From Fidelibacterota bacterium (lineage in GTDB: Bacteria; Fidelibacterota; Marinisomatia; Marinisomatales; UBA1611), in NCBI GenBank assembly GCA_018658715.1, contig JABHUQ010000089.1, forward strand, positions 1-36,158: a stretch of DNA of 36,158 nucleotides, in the 5' to 3' direction. Below are positions 29,189-35,489 of the stretch, piece by piece; position 1 is the stretch's first letter, and each line of letters opens with the position of its first letter. A program made the position numbers and the translations under genes. The notes under the pieces are model-generated. The model had not been told where the DNA came from. It did not search any database and worked only from the letters and a program-made list of their open reading frames with translations.

Positions 29189-30487
29189 TTATAATGAAAA
29201 ATGACCATCAATATAGCTTCCTTTATTCATAATTAGCGAAACAGGTTGAATTGTATTTATTGCATCAATAGCCCCATCCATTTTTACATGAATATAATTA
29301 TCAGTATGGCCTTGTATTTTTCCATTTTTCATAGTCTCAAAAAGAACTGGACGCTTCTCCCCGATAAACTGGTCATTGAAATATCTTCTTTTTTTATCTG
29401 ATAAAATGTGAAGCATTTTACTCCTATGGGCGCGTTTCATCTTCGGAACAAACTCATTCATCTCCTTTGCGAGTGTATTAGGACGTTCAGAATATGTAAA
29501 TACATGTAAATATGAAATATCGAGTTTATTTATAAATTGGTATGTTTCAAGAAAGTCCTCATCTGTTTCGCTAGGGAACCCAACAATTACATCTACACCA
29601 ATACATGCGTCTGGTGTAACGGATTTTATTTTTTCAACTCTTTCTTCAAAAAGATTGCGCTTATACCTTCTACGCATTTGAGCTAATAATTTATCTGAAC
29701 CTGACTGAAGTGGAATATGGAAATGGGGCATAAATTTTTCTGATTTTGCGCAGAATTCTATAATTTCATCCGTAAGCAAATTTGGTTCAATCGATGATAT
29801 ACGAAACCTATCAATACCATCCAATGTTTCAAGTTCCTGAATTAAATCATAAAAAGATTCATCTCCATCTTGTCCATAGTCCCCAATATTCACACCAGTT
29901 AAAACTATTTCTTTTGTTTGAGTTATAGCTACTTCTTTTGCTACGTTAAGTGTTTTTTTAATAGAGTCATTTCTACTTATACCTCTAGCCATGGGAATCG
30001 TACAAAATGAACATGTATAATCACATCCATCTTGAATTTTTAAAAAGGATCTTGTTCTTTCGCTTGATGAATAAGATGGAGAAAACGTAAGTACATTATC
30101 AATTTCTGACTGAAACACTTGTGTTTCTCCATATAAATCCAGTGAATCTAAATGGTTTAATAAATTGAATTTTTCATCTGCACCTAGTATAACACTAACA
30201 CCATCAATAGATTCAATTTCTTCAGGTCTTAATTGGGCATAACACCCTATGACCGCTACAGATGCATTTGGATTTTGTCGTTTCGCTTGACGAATTAATT
30301 TACGTGCTTCTTTATCGGCATTTTCAGTCACAGAGCATGTATTTAACACATAGATATCTGCTTCATCTTTGAAATTCACTTTCTCGAACCCATGGCGTAA
30401 AAAATCTCGAGATATAGTAGCCGTCTCCGAAAAGTTTAATTTGCACCCCAATGTATGGAATGCGACTCTTTTTGTTAGTGTGCTCAT
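29189..30487 (-). CDS. mtaB: tRNA (N6-threonylcarbamoyladenosine-C2)-methylthiotransferase MtaB
   Basis: This radical-SAM methylthiotransferase converts t6A37 to ms2t6A37 in tRNAs that read ANN codons. I use the ATG at 30487 (432 residues, MSTLTKRVAFHTLGCKLN) because family members start close to this motif; an ATG at 30511 would add eight residues. The UPF0004 domain has Cys15 in TLGCKLNFSET, Cys51 in LNTCSVTENAD and Cys82 in IGCYAQ, which hold the auxiliary cluster. The radical-SAM motif CDYTCSFC (Cys155, 159, 162) follows, then IGVDVIVGFPSETDEDF. A short TRAM-like end has VSLIMNKGSYIDGHF. TLGCKLN rather than a MiaB/RimO-type start supports MtaB. Repeats lie in its leader. Confidence 0.93.
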   Translation of the reverse strand: MSTLTKRVAFHTLGCKLNFSETATISRDFLRHGFEKVNFKDEADIYVLNTCSVTENADKEARKLIRQAKRQNPNASVAVIGCYAQLRPEEIESIDGVSVILGADEKFNLLNHLDSLDLYGETQVFQSEIDNVLTFSPSYSSSERTRSFLKIQDGCDYTCSFCTIPMARGISRNDSIKKTLNVAKEVAITQTKEIVLTGVNIGDYGQDGDESFYDLIQELETLDGIDRFRISSIEPNLLTDEIIEFCAKSEKFMPHFHIPLQSGSDKLLAQMRRRYKRNLFEERVEKIKSVTPDACIGVDVIVGFPSETDEDFLETYQFINKLDISYLHVFTYSERPNTLAKEMNEFVPKMKRAHRSKMLHILSDKKRRYFNDQFIGEKRPVLFETMKNGKIQGHTDNYIHVKMDGAIDAINTIQPVSLIMNKGSYIDGHFSL

Positions 30488-30490
30488 TTT

Positions 30491-30537
30491 ATTAAGTGTT
30501 AAAGTGTTCATGTATTAAAGTATTTCGAACACTTAAG
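30491..30537. repeat. Three TTAAGTGTTC-like repeats (two direct, one inverted) in the mtaB leader
   Basis: TTAAGTGTT at 30492-30500 and AAAGTGTTC at 30501-30509 are direct copies, and GAACACTTAAG at 30527-30537 is the inverse of both. In an mtaB transcript the 5' element CTTAAGTGTTC could pair with either downstream copy (8-9 bp each, mutually exclusive). The second pairing ends three nucleotides before the preferred mtaB ATG at 30487. The same repeats could equally be a protein operator in the mtaB/chorismate mutase divergent region (30512-30604). Confidence 0.5.
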
Positions 30538-30604
30538 AAATTTTGGGTCGGAAATTACATAGAAAATCCTTTCCACTCATAGATTGCCTTGAGTACTTTT
30601 TAAA

Positions 30605-30874
30605 ATGGATACAAAAGAAAAAATAAACCATCTCCGTCAAACTATTGATAAATATGATGACCAAATGCTTGATATATTGGTGAAACGTTTTGAAGTTTCT
30701 TTAGAAATCGGGAAAATTAAATCTTCTGAAAATCTAAAAGTGGGAGATCCCAATCGAGAACAGAATATCATTGATCGATTGAGCGAACGATTATCTGGGA
30801 AATTAGATTCTGAAGATATTGCTGCAATTTTTGGCCCGATTTACCGCATTTCAAAAAAAATACAAAGAAAGTAA
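30605..30874 (+). CDS. Chorismate mutase, AroQ type
   Basis: This 89-residue, all-helical protein is a monofunctional AroQ chorismate mutase converting chorismate to prephenate, the branch point to Phe and Tyr. The active-site residues line up one to one with the E. coli P-protein mutase domain: Arg11, Arg28, Lys39, Arg51 and Glu52, with Gln87 near the final Gln. No signal peptide is present, so it is cytoplasmic, and no prephenate dehydratase, prephenate dehydrogenase or DAHP synthase is fused to it. It is divergent from mtaB and lies upstream of the trp attenuator, so it should be expressed independently of attenuation even if transcribed with trpE. Confidence 0.93.
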   Translation: MDTKEKINHLRQTIDKYDDQMLDILVKRFEVSLEIGKIKSSENLKVGDPNREQNIIDRLSERLSGKLDSEDIAAIFGPIYRISKKIQRK

Positions 30875-30881
30875 AATAAAC

Positions 30882-30911
30882 TTGGTATCTGTTAATACTA
30901 GGTCATAATAT
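30882..30911 (+). promoter_or_regulatory. Candidate trp operon promoter
   Basis: TTGGTA at 30882-30887 and TAATAT at 30906-30911 are separated by 18 nt and lie just after the chorismate mutase stop. Initiation would be near 30918, giving a very short 5' UTR before the leader ATG at 30929. The match is moderate and assumes a sigma-70-like consensus. The alternative is that the leader is transcribed by read-through from the chorismate mutase promoter. Confidence 0.35.
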
Positions 30912-30928
30912 TCCTGCCCATGATATAC

Positions 30929-30988
30929 ATGAATACAAATAATTATTACAGCTGGTATTGGTTTTTTAACTGCGAAGGGGTTACGTAG
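30929..30988 (+). CDS. trp operon leader peptide (aromatic-rich attenuation sensor)
   Basis: A 19-codon ORF encodes MNTNNYYSWYWFFNCEGVT and ends at TAG (30986-30988). Seven of the eight residues at 6-13 are aromatic: Tyr-Tyr-Ser-Trp-Tyr-Trp-Phe-Phe, with Trp codons at 30953 and 30959. An in-frame ATG at 30920 would add three residues. The ORF lies between the chorismate mutase gene and a perfect intrinsic terminator just before trpE, exactly where an attenuation leader peptide is expected. Its last codons (GGG GTT, 30977-30982) contain the sequence able to pair with the terminator's 5' arm, so the ribosome's position would control the RNA fold. No clear Shine-Dalgarno sequence is visible. Confidence 0.82.
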   Translation: MNTNNYYSWYWFFNCEGVT

Positions 30989-31023
30989 TCCTAGGAAATA
31001 CCTATATATGCTGACTGCAATTG

Positions 31024-31052
31024 AACCCCGACATTGATCGGGGTTTTTTTTT
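31024..31052 (+). terminator. trp attenuator terminator with competing antiterminator
   Basis: AACCCCGA (31024-31031) pairs perfectly with TCGGGGTT (31038-31045) around the loop CATTGA and runs into nine T residues (31044-31052), a textbook intrinsic terminator. It ends 7 nt before the trpE ATG. GGGGTT at 30977-30982, inside the leader ORF, is identical to part of its 3' arm and can pair with AACCCC (31024-31029), which would prevent terminator formation. A ribosome at the leader stop codon would cover GGGGTT and allow termination; one stalled at the Trp codons would leave it free. Confidence 0.88.
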
Positions 31053-31059
31053 ACTTAAA

Positions 31060-32544
31060 ATGGATAAAACAAAACTAACATTAGACGAATTTCATAATTT
31101 GGCTTCCAAAGGATACCGAACTATACCTGTATATAAACGTATTTTAGCAGATATGCTTACACCCGTTGCTGCATGGGTTCATCTTTCAAATAAAGCAGAA
31201 TATGCATTCTTACTGGAATCAGTTGAAAAAGGGAATCAATATTCTCGATACTCTTATGTTGGTATCAATCCACAAAAAATTCTAAAACATAAAAATGGCG
31301 TAACTACAGTTACAGAAAATGGGCAAACCATTAATATAGATAAACCTTTTCTAGATTTGCTCAGGGAAATGCAATCCCAATATAATATGACAAAATTACC
31401 GGGTATCCCTTCTTTTACTGGAGGCTTGGTTGGATACCTTGGCTATGAAACTATTGCTTGGATTGAAGATATTCCGATTCATGGTAATTCAGATTTAAAT
31501 GTTCCAGATTCTGTATTTATGCTTTTTGAAGATATGATTGCCTTTGATCATTTGAAAGGATCAGCGCTCGTTATATCTAATGTAAACATCAATTCAAGTT
31601 GTGATTTAAATGAACAATATAATTTGGCAGATGATCGAATTGATGTAATTGGAAAAGCACTTCATTCTAACGTGGATTATCGTACACCTGTTCGCGTCGA
31701 ACAAAGCAGGGTTTCATCAAATTTCAATCAAGACTCCTTTGAGTCTGCAGTATTAAAAGCCAAACAGCATATTACTGATGGTGATATTTTTCAATTAGTT
31801 TTGAGTCAGAGGTTTGAAAGAAAAACTTCAGTAGATCCCACTACACTTTATAGAGCTCTTCGAACTATAAATCCATCACCATATATGTTTCATTTAAAAA
31901 TAAAAGATTTTGATATAATTGGAGCATCTCCTGAATTATTGGTGAAAGTAGAAGAAGGAACTGTTGAAATTCGTCCCATTGCAGGTACACGTCAACGTGG
32001 AGAAACAGAAACGGAAGATAAATTGCTGGCTCTAGATTTAATCAATGATGAAAAAGAATGTGCCGAACATTTAATGTTATTGGATTTGGGGCGAAATGAT
32101 GTAGGACGTGTATCCGAATATGGTTCCGTAACTATTCCAGAAAATATGAAGATTGAGAATTATTCCCATGTAATGCATATCGTTTCTGATGTAAAAGGGA
32201 AGTTGGCTAAAGATAAGGACTCTTTCGATGCCCTTATGAGTGGATTCCCAGCAGGGACCGTCACCGGTGCCCCAAAGATCCGGGCCATGGAAATCATTCA
32301 TGAATTAGAGCAGGAGCGCAGGGATATTTATTCCGGTGCTGTTGGGTTTTTTGATTTTACGGGAAATGTGAATACGTGTATCGCCATCCGAACCATGTTC
32401 ATGAAGGACGGAATAGTTCATTTTCAATCCGGCGCTGGCATTGTACACGATTCAGATCCGACCAAAGAATTTGAAGAAACGGTGGATAAGGCAAAGGCCA
32501 TCATGGCAGCGATTGATTTTGCAGAAAATGGGCTGGTCTCATGA
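31060..32544 (+). CDS. trpE: Anthranilate synthase component I
   Basis: The 494-residue protein converts chorismate and ammonia to anthranilate. I start at ATG 31060; the upstream in-frame TTG at 31021 would translate the terminator hairpin and is rejected. LLES at 51-54 followed by SRYSYVGINP is the region that binds Trp in feedback-inhibited TrpE enzymes, so allosteric control is likely. Catalytic-domain signatures are IIGASPELLV, EIRPIAGTRQRG, DEKECAEHLMLLDLGRNDVG, FPAGTVTGAPKIRAMEIIHE and FQSGAGIVHDSDPTKEFEET. It overlaps trpG by ATGA, so the two subunits should be made in equal amounts. G+C is visibly higher in the last 300 nt than in most of the gene. Confidence 0.96.
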   Translation: MDKTKLTLDEFHNLASKGYRTIPVYKRILADMLTPVAAWVHLSNKAEYAFLLESVEKGNQYSRYSYVGINPQKILKHKNGVTTVTENGQTINIDKPFLDLLREMQSQYNMTKLPGIPSFTGGLVGYLGYETIAWIEDIPIHGNSDLNVPDSVFMLFEDMIAFDHLKGSALVISNVNINSSCDLNEQYNLADDRIDVIGKALHSNVDYRTPVRVEQSRVSSNFNQDSFESAVLKAKQHITDGDIFQLVLSQRFERKTSVDPTTLYRALRTINPSPYMFHLKIKDFDIIGASPELLVKVEEGTVEIRPIAGTRQRGETETEDKLLALDLINDEKECAEHLMLLDLGRNDVGRVSEYGSVTIPENMKIENYSHVMHIVSDVKGKLAKDKDSFDALMSGFPAGTVTGAPKIRAMEIIHELEQERRDIYSGAVGFFDFTGNVNTCIAIRTMFMKDGIVHFQSGAGIVHDSDPTKEFEETVDKAKAIMAAIDFAENGLVS

Positions 32545-33107
32545 TTTTAGTTATCGATAACTACGATTCATTCACCTATAACCTGGTACAGTACATTGGC
32601 CCTATCAACTCAAATGTAAAAGTAGTGCGGAATGATCAGTTTAAATTAGATGATATCAAACAGTGGGATCCATCCCATATAGTTATTTCTCCTGGTCCTG
32701 GTCGCCCGGAAGATGCAGGACATTCAATTGATGTGATAAAAAAATATGGAGCGTCTATTCCCACTCTTGGTGTTTGCCTTGGCCACCAGGCAATCACTGT
32801 AGCATATGGTGGGACAGTAATTCATTCATCAGAAATTGTCCACGGAAAAACAGCAACCATTCAAAATATTGGGTCAACTTTATTTAATGCAGTAGGTAAT
32901 TCTTTCACGGCAACCCGGTACCATTCTTTGGTTGCAGAACGAGACAGTTTACCTAAAGATTTAAAAATTACTGCCGAATTAGAAAATGGACTTATCATGG
33001 GGATCGAACATGAAATTCATCCGGTTTTCGGGGTTCAGTTCCACCCTGAATCGATTGCCACAGAGTATGGGATACAAATAATAAAGAATTTTTTAGAGAT
33101 AAAATAA
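32541..33107 (+). CDS. trpG: Anthranilate synthase component II (glutamine amidotransferase)
   Basis: The 188-residue class I amidotransferase supplies ammonia from glutamine to TrpE. The oxyanion-loop segment ISPGPGRPEDAG (49-60), the nucleophile elbow GVCLGHQAI with Cys79, and FHPESI with His168 and Glu170 form the expected catalytic triad. It is a separate protein, not fused to trpD. Such subunits sometimes serve p-aminobenzoate synthase too (PabA function), and no separate pabA is visible in this window, so a dual role is possible. It starts in an ATGA overlap with trpE and ends in a TAATG overlap with trpD. Confidence 0.95.
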   Translation: MILVIDNYDSFTYNLVQYIGPINSNVKVVRNDQFKLDDIKQWDPSHIVISPGPGRPEDAGHSIDVIKKYGASIPTLGVCLGHQAITVAYGGTVIHSSEIVHGKTATIQNIGSTLFNAVGNSFTATRYHSLVAERDSLPKDLKITAELENGLIMGIEHEIHPVFGVQFHPESIATEYGIQIIKNFLEIK

Positions 33108-34102
33108 TGAAACAAATATTAGAACAAATACTTGATAAACAAAATCTCACTCGAGATGAAGCATTTAATGTAATGTTCTCTATAATGTTGGGTGAATTTG
33201 ATGACCCGCAAATTGCCGGTTTTCTTATGGCGCTCCGTTCAAAAGGTGAAACAGTAGATGAGATTACTGGCTTCGCTCAAGCCATGCGAGAAAAAATGAT
33301 AACTATTCAATTACAAACACCTGCAATTGATATGTGTGGAACCGGTGGTGATGCATTGGGTACTTTTAATATTTCTACTACTGCTACTTTTGTTGTTGCC
33401 GGTGCCGGCGTTCATGTAGCCAAACACGGGAACCGTTCAATGACATCAAAATCTGGTTCGGCTGATGTGCTCCAGGCATTGGGAATTGCCATTGATAAAT
33501 CAGTGGAAGAGTCCACAAAAGATATCGAAGAGATTGGATTGGGATTTATGTTTGCACCGGCCTACCACCCTGCAATGAAACATGCCATCGGTGCTCGGAA
33601 AGCATTGGCCACTCGAACAGTTTTTAATATTTTAGGCCCACTCTGTAATCCCGCCGAAGTAAAGGCCCAGGCCATGGGAATTTTTCATCCGGATTTAACT
33701 GAAGCTCAAGCCCATGTATTAAAAGCACTTGGTTCGACAGATGTAATGGTTTTTCATGGACGTGACGGATTGGATGAAATTTCCACAACTGACACAACCA
33801 AAATCAGTCAAATGCAAAATGGTGAGAATATAAATACTTATGAATTTGATTCAATCGAGTTAGGTTTAAATCGCGTTTCATTGGATGAACTTCAAGGCGG
33901 CGAACCCATTGAGAATGCTGAAATAATAAAATCGATTCTTAATGGCGAAAAAGGACCAAAACGAGATATTGTATTGCTCAATGCCGCTGCTGGGATCGTT
34001 GTGGGCGGGCAAGCTGAAACCTTAAACGATGGATTGGAATCGGCAAAAGAGTCTGTGGATTCAGGCGTGGCGCTTAACATATTAAACCAATTGGTTGGAT
34101 GA
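33107..34102 (+). CDS. trpD: Anthranilate phosphoribosyltransferase
   Basis: The 331-residue enzyme transfers the phosphoribosyl group from PRPP to anthranilate. The small N-terminal helical domain (1-65) is followed by the PRPP site MCGTGGDALGTFNIST (76-91), KHGNRSMTSKSGSADVLQAL (106-125) and the metal-binding region GLDEISTTDTTKI. The segment FAPAYHPAMKHA and RTVFNILGPLCNPA also match the family. Length is standard. It is coupled to trpG by TAATG and to trpC by ATGA. Confidence 0.96.
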   Translation: MKQILEQILDKQNLTRDEAFNVMFSIMLGEFDDPQIAGFLMALRSKGETVDEITGFAQAMREKMITIQLQTPAIDMCGTGGDALGTFNISTTATFVVAGAGVHVAKHGNRSMTSKSGSADVLQALGIAIDKSVEESTKDIEEIGLGFMFAPAYHPAMKHAIGARKALATRTVFNILGPLCNPAEVKAQAMGIFHPDLTEAQAHVLKALGSTDVMVFHGRDGLDEISTTDTTKISQMQNGENINTYEFDSIELGLNRVSLDELQGGEPIENAEIIKSILNGEKGPKRDIVLLNAAAGIVVGGQAETLNDGLESAKESVDSGVALNILNQLVG

Positions 34103-34860
34103 ATATTTTAGAAAAAATATTAAACGTAAAACGTCAGGAAATTCAACAAATCAAAGATTTGGAATTTGGAGAAATGGTTGGCCAAAGTCGTAGCCTTAAA
34201 GATGCCCTTTCCAAACCGGGGATTTCTGTCATTGCAGAGATAAAAATGAAATCACCAAGTGAAGGTGAAATATTTCCTAATGCTGATCCTGCTCAAATTG
34301 CTAAAGGTTATGAATCGGCAGGTGCAGCGGCCATTTCTGTACTGACAGATCAATCCTTTTTTGGAGGCAGTTTGGATATTCTCCAATCTGTCCGGAATGC
34401 GGTTTCTATTCCAGTAATTCGTAAAGATTTTATTATTGATCAAAAGCAAATATCGGAAACAATTCATTATAATGGAGATGCCTTTTTACTCATTGCTGAT
34501 GCACTGGATCAAGATTCATTGCATCAATTAATGAATATCGGGAAAGGGACAGGATTGGAATTTCTCGTAGAATACCACGCTGAAAAACATGCTGAATTTA
34601 TTTTTGCATTGAATCCAGAAATTGTAGGAATCAACTGTCGAAATCTCAAAACAATGTCAACTGACATTACGTATTTTGAAAAAATGATTTCATCTTTACC
34701 ATCAAATTCTGTGAAAGTTGCAGAAAGTGGAATTCAGACTTCTGATGATTTAGAATATGTTTCTGATTTAGGTTACGATGCAGCACTCATTGGCACATCG
34801 CTCATGAAAACAGGCCATCCGGAAAAAGCTTTGGAAACATTGCTTGGAGAACTCTCATGA
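34099..34860 (+). CDS. trpC: Indole-3-glycerol phosphate synthase
   Basis: The 253-residue TIM-barrel enzyme closes the indole ring of CdRP with loss of CO2 and water. The catalytic region is VIAEIKMKSPSEGEI, with Glu47 and Lys51 matching E. coli Glu49 and Lys53 or the nearby catalytic Lys; IPVIRKDFIID carries the second catalytic lysine (Lys109). LEFLVEYH and GINCRNLKT provide the further Glu and Asn, and VAESGIQTSDD and ALIGTSLMK bind phosphate. It is monofunctional, not fused to TrpF as in enterobacteria. It overlaps both trpD and trpF by ATGA. Confidence 0.95.
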   Translation: MNILEKILNVKRQEIQQIKDLEFGEMVGQSRSLKDALSKPGISVIAEIKMKSPSEGEIFPNADPAQIAKGYESAGAAAISVLTDQSFFGGSLDILQSVRNAVSIPVIRKDFIIDQKQISETIHYNGDAFLLIADALDQDSLHQLMNIGKGTGLEFLVEYHAEKHAEFIFALNPEIVGINCRNLKTMSTDITYFEKMISSLPSNSVKVAESGIQTSDDLEYVSDLGYDAALIGTSLMKTGHPEKALETLLGELS

Positions 34861-35489
34861 TTCCAACCAAAATTTGCGGTATTACCAATTTAGTCGATGC
34901 AAAAGTAGCAGTAGAAAATGGCGCATCTGCAATTGGATTTATTTTTTATGAAAAGAGCCCAAGAGCCATTTCTATTGAAAATGCAAAATCAATATCGAAA
35001 CAACTATCCTACTCTGTTGTTCTTGTGGGTGTGTTTGTGAATCAAAATAAAGATTTTATTGATAAAATAATTTCAGAAGTTCAATTAAATATGATTCAAC
35101 TTCACGGTGATGAATCATCAAATTTTTGCAATCAATTTGATGTGCCTGTTTTAAAAGCGGTACGCATAAAAAATGAAGCCAGTTTATCTGTCATGGACCA
35201 ATATAATGTGGCTGGGTTTTTGTTGGATACTTTTTCCAATAAACAATATGGTGGAACGGGAGAAACATTCGATTGGTCATTTATAAATGATCAAATAGAC
35301 ACCCCCATTATTCTTTCTGGTGGGCTCAACCCAGATAATATTTTAGATGCGATTGATTCTGTAAATCCAGCAGCGATTGATGTAAATAGTGGTGTTGAAT
35401 TATCACCTGGAAAGAAAGAACACCAAAAAATTAATTTACTTTTTGAAAATTTAAAAAATACAAACACGTCAGGGTTCCATTTTGGATAA
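34857..35489 (+). CDS. trpF: Phosphoribosylanthranilate isomerase
   Basis: The 210-residue TIM-barrel enzyme performs the Amadori rearrangement of phosphoribosylanthranilate to CdRP. The catalytic general base is Cys7 in KICGIT and the general acid is Asp124 in [16 protein letters not shown] follows, and [10 protein letters not shown] and [14 protein letters not shown] form the phosphate-binding end. It is monofunctional. It begins in an ATGA overlap with trpC, and its last 8 nt overlap the TTG start of trpB. This gene is noticeably more AT-rich than trpD. Confidence 0.95.

Follow-up and report, generated by a model that had tools for sequence, protein, structure and literature searches.

Results

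Gene organization of the locus

The window, a stretch of 36,158 nucleotides, corresponds to contig C36 in the genome of a member of Candidatus Neomarinimicrobiota (Marinimicrobia, SAR406). Its last part carries, all on the forward strand, aroQ, a 22-codon open reading frame (ORF), an intrinsic terminator and trpE, which is followed by trpG, trpD, trpC, trpF and the 5' part of trpB (Table 1). A second contig of the same genome, C95 (locus L113, 1-5906), opens inside trpB and continues with trpA-pheA-tyrA-DAHP synthase-aroA-aroE, with some 25 residues of TrpB missing between the two contigs. Pfam assignments gave the order trpB, trpA, pheA, tyrA, class II DAHP synthase, aroA, aroE and aroC after trpF in relatives, and the single match to class II DAHP synthase in the genome is located on C95. 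Because C95 continues the operon with pheA, tyrA and DAHP synthase, the putative attenuator precedes genes for Trp, Phe and Tyr. The first-pass annotation of this DNA had taken trpEGDCFB as the controlled unit, which is too short for the supraoperon, to which pheA, tyrA, DAHP synthase, aroA and aroE have to be added.

Table 1. Features of the aroQ-trpB region in the window.
Feature	Position	Strand	Remarks
aroQ, chorismate mutase type II (CM_2)	30605-30874	+	Pfam PF01817, E=9e-20; same place in many relatives (synteny)
Leader ORF, MIYMNTNNYYSWYWFFNCEGVT-stop	30920-30988	+	22 codons; inner alternative ATG at 30929; homologous ORFs before trpE at ~55 loci in the phylum
Aromatic control codons, Y Y S W Y W F F (predicted)	30944-30967	+	Basis: 14-member core clade
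Region 2, GGGGTT (Gly-Val codons)	30977-30982	+	Antiterminator 5' half, predicted to lie under a ribosome that has reached the stop codon; 2:3 pairing -10.9 kcal/mol
Intrinsic terminator, GAACCCCGA-CATTGA-TCGGGGTTT plus T-run	31023-31052	+	Stem 31023-31031 with 31038-31046; T-run to 31052
Region 3, AACCCC	31024-31029	+	Terminator 5' arm, also antiterminator 3' half
trpE, anthranilate synthase component I	31060-32544	+	Pfam PF00425/PF04715
trpG	32541-33107	+	Pfam PF00117
trpD	33107-34102	+	Pfam PF00591/PF02885
trpC	34099-34860	+	Pfam PF00218
trpF	34857-35489	+	Pfam PF00697
trpB, 5' part, cut at contig end	35482-36156	+	Remainder on G000:C95 (locus L113)

Leader ORF, terminator and alternative pairing

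The leader had initially been described as a 19-codon ORF starting at 30929. The ORF itself, its TAG (30986-30988) and its Trp codons at 30953 and 30959 were all found again, and the start appears more likely to be the ATG at 30920, since two relatives (L011 and L013) keep the first ATG without the second. In another relative (L021), GTG replaces the first start codon. No Shine-Dalgarno sequence is evident 5' of the leader ORF. From the end of the last Trp codon to GGGGUU there are 15 nt, and a further 3 nt separate the end of GGGGUU from the TAG.

The terminator ends 7 nt 5' of trpE, and no other terminator-like site occurs on either strand of the 620 bases examined, for which shuffled sequences lead one to expect 0.2. 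GGGGTT, the terminator and the AACCCC able to pair with GGGGTT lie where they had been placed in the first-pass annotation. Folding of the whole leader, proposed there as a check, gave a stability that is not unusual relative to shuffles (z = -0.73), and the case for an attenuator therefore rests on conservation and covariation.

Conservation of the aromatic leader across the phylum

We collected the upstream regions of trpE from the 63 genomes of the phylum that carry this gene, except where a contig end cut the locus. A short ORF containing one to four Trp codons, in most cases surrounded by codons for Tyr and Phe, precedes trpE at about 55 loci (some 34 genera, 14 families), and an intrinsic terminator lies 23-43 nt after the leader stop codon. 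The aromatic ORF, its Trp and Tyr codons and the complementarity among regions 2, 3 and 4 are thus kept among relatives, as had been anticipated from the single sequence. When 1.08 Mb of supraoperon loci were scanned on both strands for ORFs in which 6 or more of 8 codons are aromatic and behind which a terminator lies, matches occurred only before trpE or aroQ/DAHP synthase, so that the combination of aromatic leader and terminator is well above chance. Weaker matches with 5 of 8 aromatic codons (L087, L106 on the minus strand, and L163) were taken as chance.

In the core clade of 14 members, the Trp positions never vary (14/14); counted from the first Trp, positions -3, +1, +3 and +4 hold only Tyr or Phe, which interchange with each other (7 Tyr vs 7 Phe at position -3), whereas positions -4, -1 and +5 to +7 are variable. 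Every residue of YYSWYWFF apart from the Ser is either Trp (14/14) or almost only Tyr/Phe in this clade, the leaders of which also contain silent codon changes. Leaders with one Trp and five to seven Tyr/Phe residues, such as FNYYWYY and FFYFWYY, exist as well. No aromatic leader was found within 260 nt upstream of trpE at L029-L032 (family f16) or at L065 and L066 (f26). Hidden leader candidates near aroQ in the leaderless f16 genomes (NNWW..., SNWW...) were rejected, as they have no terminator.

A strong match to trpE was obtained in 63 of the 245 genomes of the phylum, in 31 of the 94 genomes of good quality, and in neither of two same-genus genomes; Trp biosynthesis looks patchy across the phylum. 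One genome (G113) contains two near-identical copies of trpE on contigs C30 and C19 (L052 and L053), each with the leader NQLIWWYNYGGTL, and this duplication may be an assembly artefact.

Covariation of the paired regions

From family to family, regions 2, 3 and 4 vary in concert and stay complementary. Regions 2 and 3 read GGGGUU/AACCCC in the window, GAGGUU/AACCUC in L015, GGGGCU/GGCCCC in L016, ACAGGGUU/AACCCUGU in L051, GGAGUGGG/CCCACUU in L058 and ACGGGGAUGUGA/UCACACGCCCCUGU in L068. With one genome per genus, the native 2:3 duplexes have a mean of -12.0 kcal/mol, compared with -9.3 kcal/mol after exchange of arms from one genus to another; in 20,000 permutations the native 2:3 sum was never reached, and the result was the same with one genus per family. 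Taken by itself in single genomes, the 2:3 duplex falls short of significance (p 0.1-0.5) in L011, L014, L024, L027, L054, L056 and L057, and families f29 and f27 (both Trp-only) and f25 show weak pairing.

Leader composition and operon content

Among genera with phe/tyr genes in the operon, Tyr and Phe account for 0.18-0.75 of the non-Trp core codons (means per genus), with 16 of 18 genera reaching at least 0.40; this count set apart f9 and other lineages that keep the shared aro genes without adjacent pheA/tyrA (0.18-0.32). The corresponding fraction is 0.00-0.30 in the five Trp-only genera, against a background of 0.13. The difference between operons with and without phe/tyr genes gave p = 0.0012 in a Mann-Whitney test that ignores relatedness. 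The Trp-only leaders of families f23 and f29 form one clade in the TrpE tree, and the well-supported branches provide four independent contrasts, of which on average 3.4 go in the expected direction and none against it, which is not significant alone.

Operons limited to the trp genes have leaders that are Trp-only or nearly so (WW or WWW) or poorer in Tyr/Phe codons. In families f23 and f29, trpEGDCFBA forms such an operon, behind the leaders NQWWKRY, NRWWKN, IQWWHF, NNWWWEM, NQNWWWEK and NINWWWQMM, and the leader of f27 reads NNWWWQWL on a contig that is cut in trpB. Two genera (L023 and L036) are exceptions, with Tyr/Phe-poor leaders despite the presence of phe/tyr genes.

In three cases, a Trp-free Phe/Tyr leader with a terminator precedes a separate aro operon (FFYYFYF, YTTYYYF, NYYYFYF). 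Genome G217 of family f29 (L135/L151), in which the trp leader is NINWWWQMM, has elsewhere a DAHP synthase operon preceded by the leader MNNKRYFFYYFYFKELHRKG-stop, which contains no Trp and in which region 2, CGGAAGGGGUA, pairs with GACCCCUUCC of the terminator at -17.6 kcal/mol. In G209 of the same family (L149), with the trp leader NNWWWEM, MPLNYTTYYYFNG... precedes aroQ-tyrA-aroE-aroC-aroKB, and the antiterminator (2:3 duplex) has -23.0 kcal/mol. All five genomes of f9 carry a Trp-centred trp leader (KTWKWYF) and, together with a terminator between trpA and aroQ-DAHP synthase-aroA-aroE-aroC, a second leader, MKNFNYYYFYFR..., MKNFN(Y/N)YYFYFR..., with a 2:3 duplex of -13.2 kcal/mol. Phe/Tyr leaders were not found at the split pheA/DAHP synthase or aro/phe loci of f23, f27, f26 and G008.

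Leader composition thus tends to follow operon content, as judged from the Trp-only operons being poor in Tyr/Phe codons and from the split-off aro/tyr genes having Trp-free leaders of their own. The Trp-free leaders before the departed genes are a stronger test of this rule than the losses in Trp-only operons. The mixed codons of the leader in the window would be explained by the operon making Trp, Phe and Tyr. A mixed aromatic composition, considered unusual at first sight, is the rule in the phylum when Phe/Tyr genes share the attenuator.

Searches for other regulators

The Rfam model Trp_leader (RF00513) gave no match up to E=1 in positions 30000-32000 of the window, and no Rfam family reached its gathering score in six relatives. 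Sub-threshold matches of the leader to Arrc14, NsiR1 and PhrS (E 0.13-0.9) were judged to be chance. T-box elements (RF00230) were found neither in the leader region nor in the whole genome, and TrpR (PF01371) was not found in the genome by a search that detected the E. coli control.

Elsewhere in the same genome, a His-rich short ORF, MNMRRRHNHHHQPFTLKGRSGRAT-stop, lies before hisG (L173, G000:C37) and ends at locus position 1274, with a strong terminator of -22.8 kcal/mol at 1300-1329. In this genome, histidine synthesis is thus probably under leader-peptide attenuation as well.

Discussion

A probable multivalent aromatic attenuator

The locus combines a short ORF rich in codons for the pathway products, an intrinsic terminator before the first gene and a covarying antiterminator that excludes the terminator, as expected of an attenuator; as expected of a multivalent one, Trp, Tyr and Phe codons stand before an operon with trp genes, pheA and tyrA. 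We consider it highly probable that the leader is a ribosome-mediated attenuator operating as an OR gate for scarce charged tRNA-Trp, tRNA-Tyr or tRNA-Phe and controlling trpEGDCFBA-pheA-tyrA-DAHP synthase-aroA-aroE. Ribosome-mediated attenuation, already proposed in the first-pass annotation, gains support from the leader ORF, residues, terminator and covarying pairings conserved in relatives.

With all three aminoacyl-tRNAs plentiful, the ribosome would run to the TAG at 30986 and mask GGGGUU (30977-30982), whereupon the 3:4 hairpin (31023-31046) would form and transcription would end before trpE. If any of the three were scarce, the ribosome would stall within codons 30944-30967 and leave GGGGUU free to pair with AACCCC (31024-31029), and RNA polymerase would continue into trpE. 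With ribosome footprint sizes assumed from E. coli, the distances in the window would fit this scheme: a stall at any codon from 30944 to 30962 would leave GGGGUU exposed, and one at the second Phe codon (30965) is borderline. Translation of the leader, stalling, termination and readthrough in vivo are predicted from the sequence comparisons, and so is the relief of termination by scarcity of Tyr and of Phe, each in its own right, in addition to Trp. Prephenate as the source of both Phe and Tyr fits a sensor in which either of the two codons suffices.

The most serious competitor of the OR gate is an ordinary Trp-only attenuator in which Tyr and Phe codons are incidental, owing to AT-rich sequence or to tolerance of aromatic residues. 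That nothing but Trp is invariant within the aromatic tract of core-clade leaders speaks for it, yet Tyr/Phe codons are three to five times the background (0.13) in most supraoperon leaders, are retained across families while exchanging mostly with each other, drop to 0-0.3 in operons that have lost the phe/tyr genes, and reappear in Trp-free leaders before the departed genes. We therefore regard the Trp-only reading as unlikely. Considerably less probable still is that the hairpin is a plain terminator of aroQ and the short ORF no sensor. Indeed, aroQ lies directly upstream, and a promoter search did not locate that of the trp genes, with five sigma-70-like matches vs 2.9 expected, but the leader and its terminator persist at loci with aroQ in another place (L079, L086 and L089), and the terminator 5' arm changes in step with the 3' part of the ORF. 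The interchange of Tyr and Phe, as though aromatic chemistry counted, would also suit arrest by a nascent aromatic peptide sensing a free metabolite instead of charged tRNA, as in TnaC, an explanation to which we give very little credence, because, unlike in an arrest peptide, families differ freely in how the aromatic residues are ordered and spaced (YYSWYWFF, FNYYWYYQ, FFYYWWF, WKWYF, NWWWQ) and the leader residues match the pathway products instead.

The attenuator read as an OR gate sits between aroQ (chorismate mutase), of the Phe/Tyr branch, and trpE, of the Trp branch. If the promoter lies 5' of aroQ, the attenuator would be an intra-operon one at the chorismate branch point.

Joined and divided leaders

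Beyond the window, we think it likely that the leaders constitute a phylum-wide family of aromatic attenuators, the control codons of which have co-evolved with operon content, with a joint leader for joined genes and divided Trp-only and Phe/Tyr-only leaders for separated genes. If this co-evolution holds, the leader sequence would let one read which amino acids are sensed by the operon of an uncultured organism. In a mostly uncultured marine phylum, a network with three products would apparently be under one leader peptide predicted to sense all three. The split cases, with WWW before trp and FFYYFYF or YTTYYYF before aro/tyr genes, provide a natural experiment tying regulatory codons to operon membership. 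They would supply a testable rule for predicting the amino acids sensed by an attenuator and suggest how specificity is gained and divided as operons break up.

Comparison with known systems

The E. coli trpL leader resembles that of the window in its short ORF with Trp codons, its terminator before trpE and its antiterminator forming upon a stall at the Trp codons. It differs in having Trp as the only control codon, whereas Tyr and Phe codons outnumber Trp codons in the window, where regions 2, 3 and 4 apparently form a three-part control region (2:3:4) and the products of the operon include Phe, Tyr and the common precursors as well. Multivalent leaders with control codons for the products of the operon precede ilvGMEDA and thrABC in E. 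coli; these differ in using branched-chain or Thr/Ile codons instead of aromatic ones, and in their sequences and bacteria. Some attenuators in Bacteroidetes/Chlorobi were reportedly mentioned by Vitreschak and co-workers in 2004.

Supraoperons of trp, tyr and aro genes, some with putative attenuators taken from a database, resemble the window in their gene clusters, and the parts of that account available to us describe no mixed Trp/Tyr/Phe leader (Song et al., 2005; PMC1173090). In the open-access literature, we found no report of a Trp+Tyr+Phe leader or of attenuation in Marinimicrobia. The mechanism itself is already known from E. coli trpL and pheL and from aroR of Corynebacterium glutamicum; what we did not find described is one Trp+Tyr+Phe leader governing the entire pathway, or the splitting of leader specificity together with the operon.

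In E. coli, pheL is a Phe-codon leader attenuating pheA of the Phe branch (PMC11802643), and differs from the window in being restricted to Phe and to a single gene, with no coupling to Trp or Tyr. The aroR leader of C. glutamicum has Phe-Tyr-Phe codons before the aroF (DAHP synthase) operon and responds to limitation of Phe, not of Tyr (Neshat et al., 2014, via PMC11802643). Since aroR ignores Tyr limitation, Tyr codons alone are no proof of Tyr sensing. The aroR leader is the nearest in kind. It belongs to an unrelated phylum, controls the aroF operon only and has no Trp control codons described, and it is very like the Trp-free leaders of G217 and the f9 genomes.
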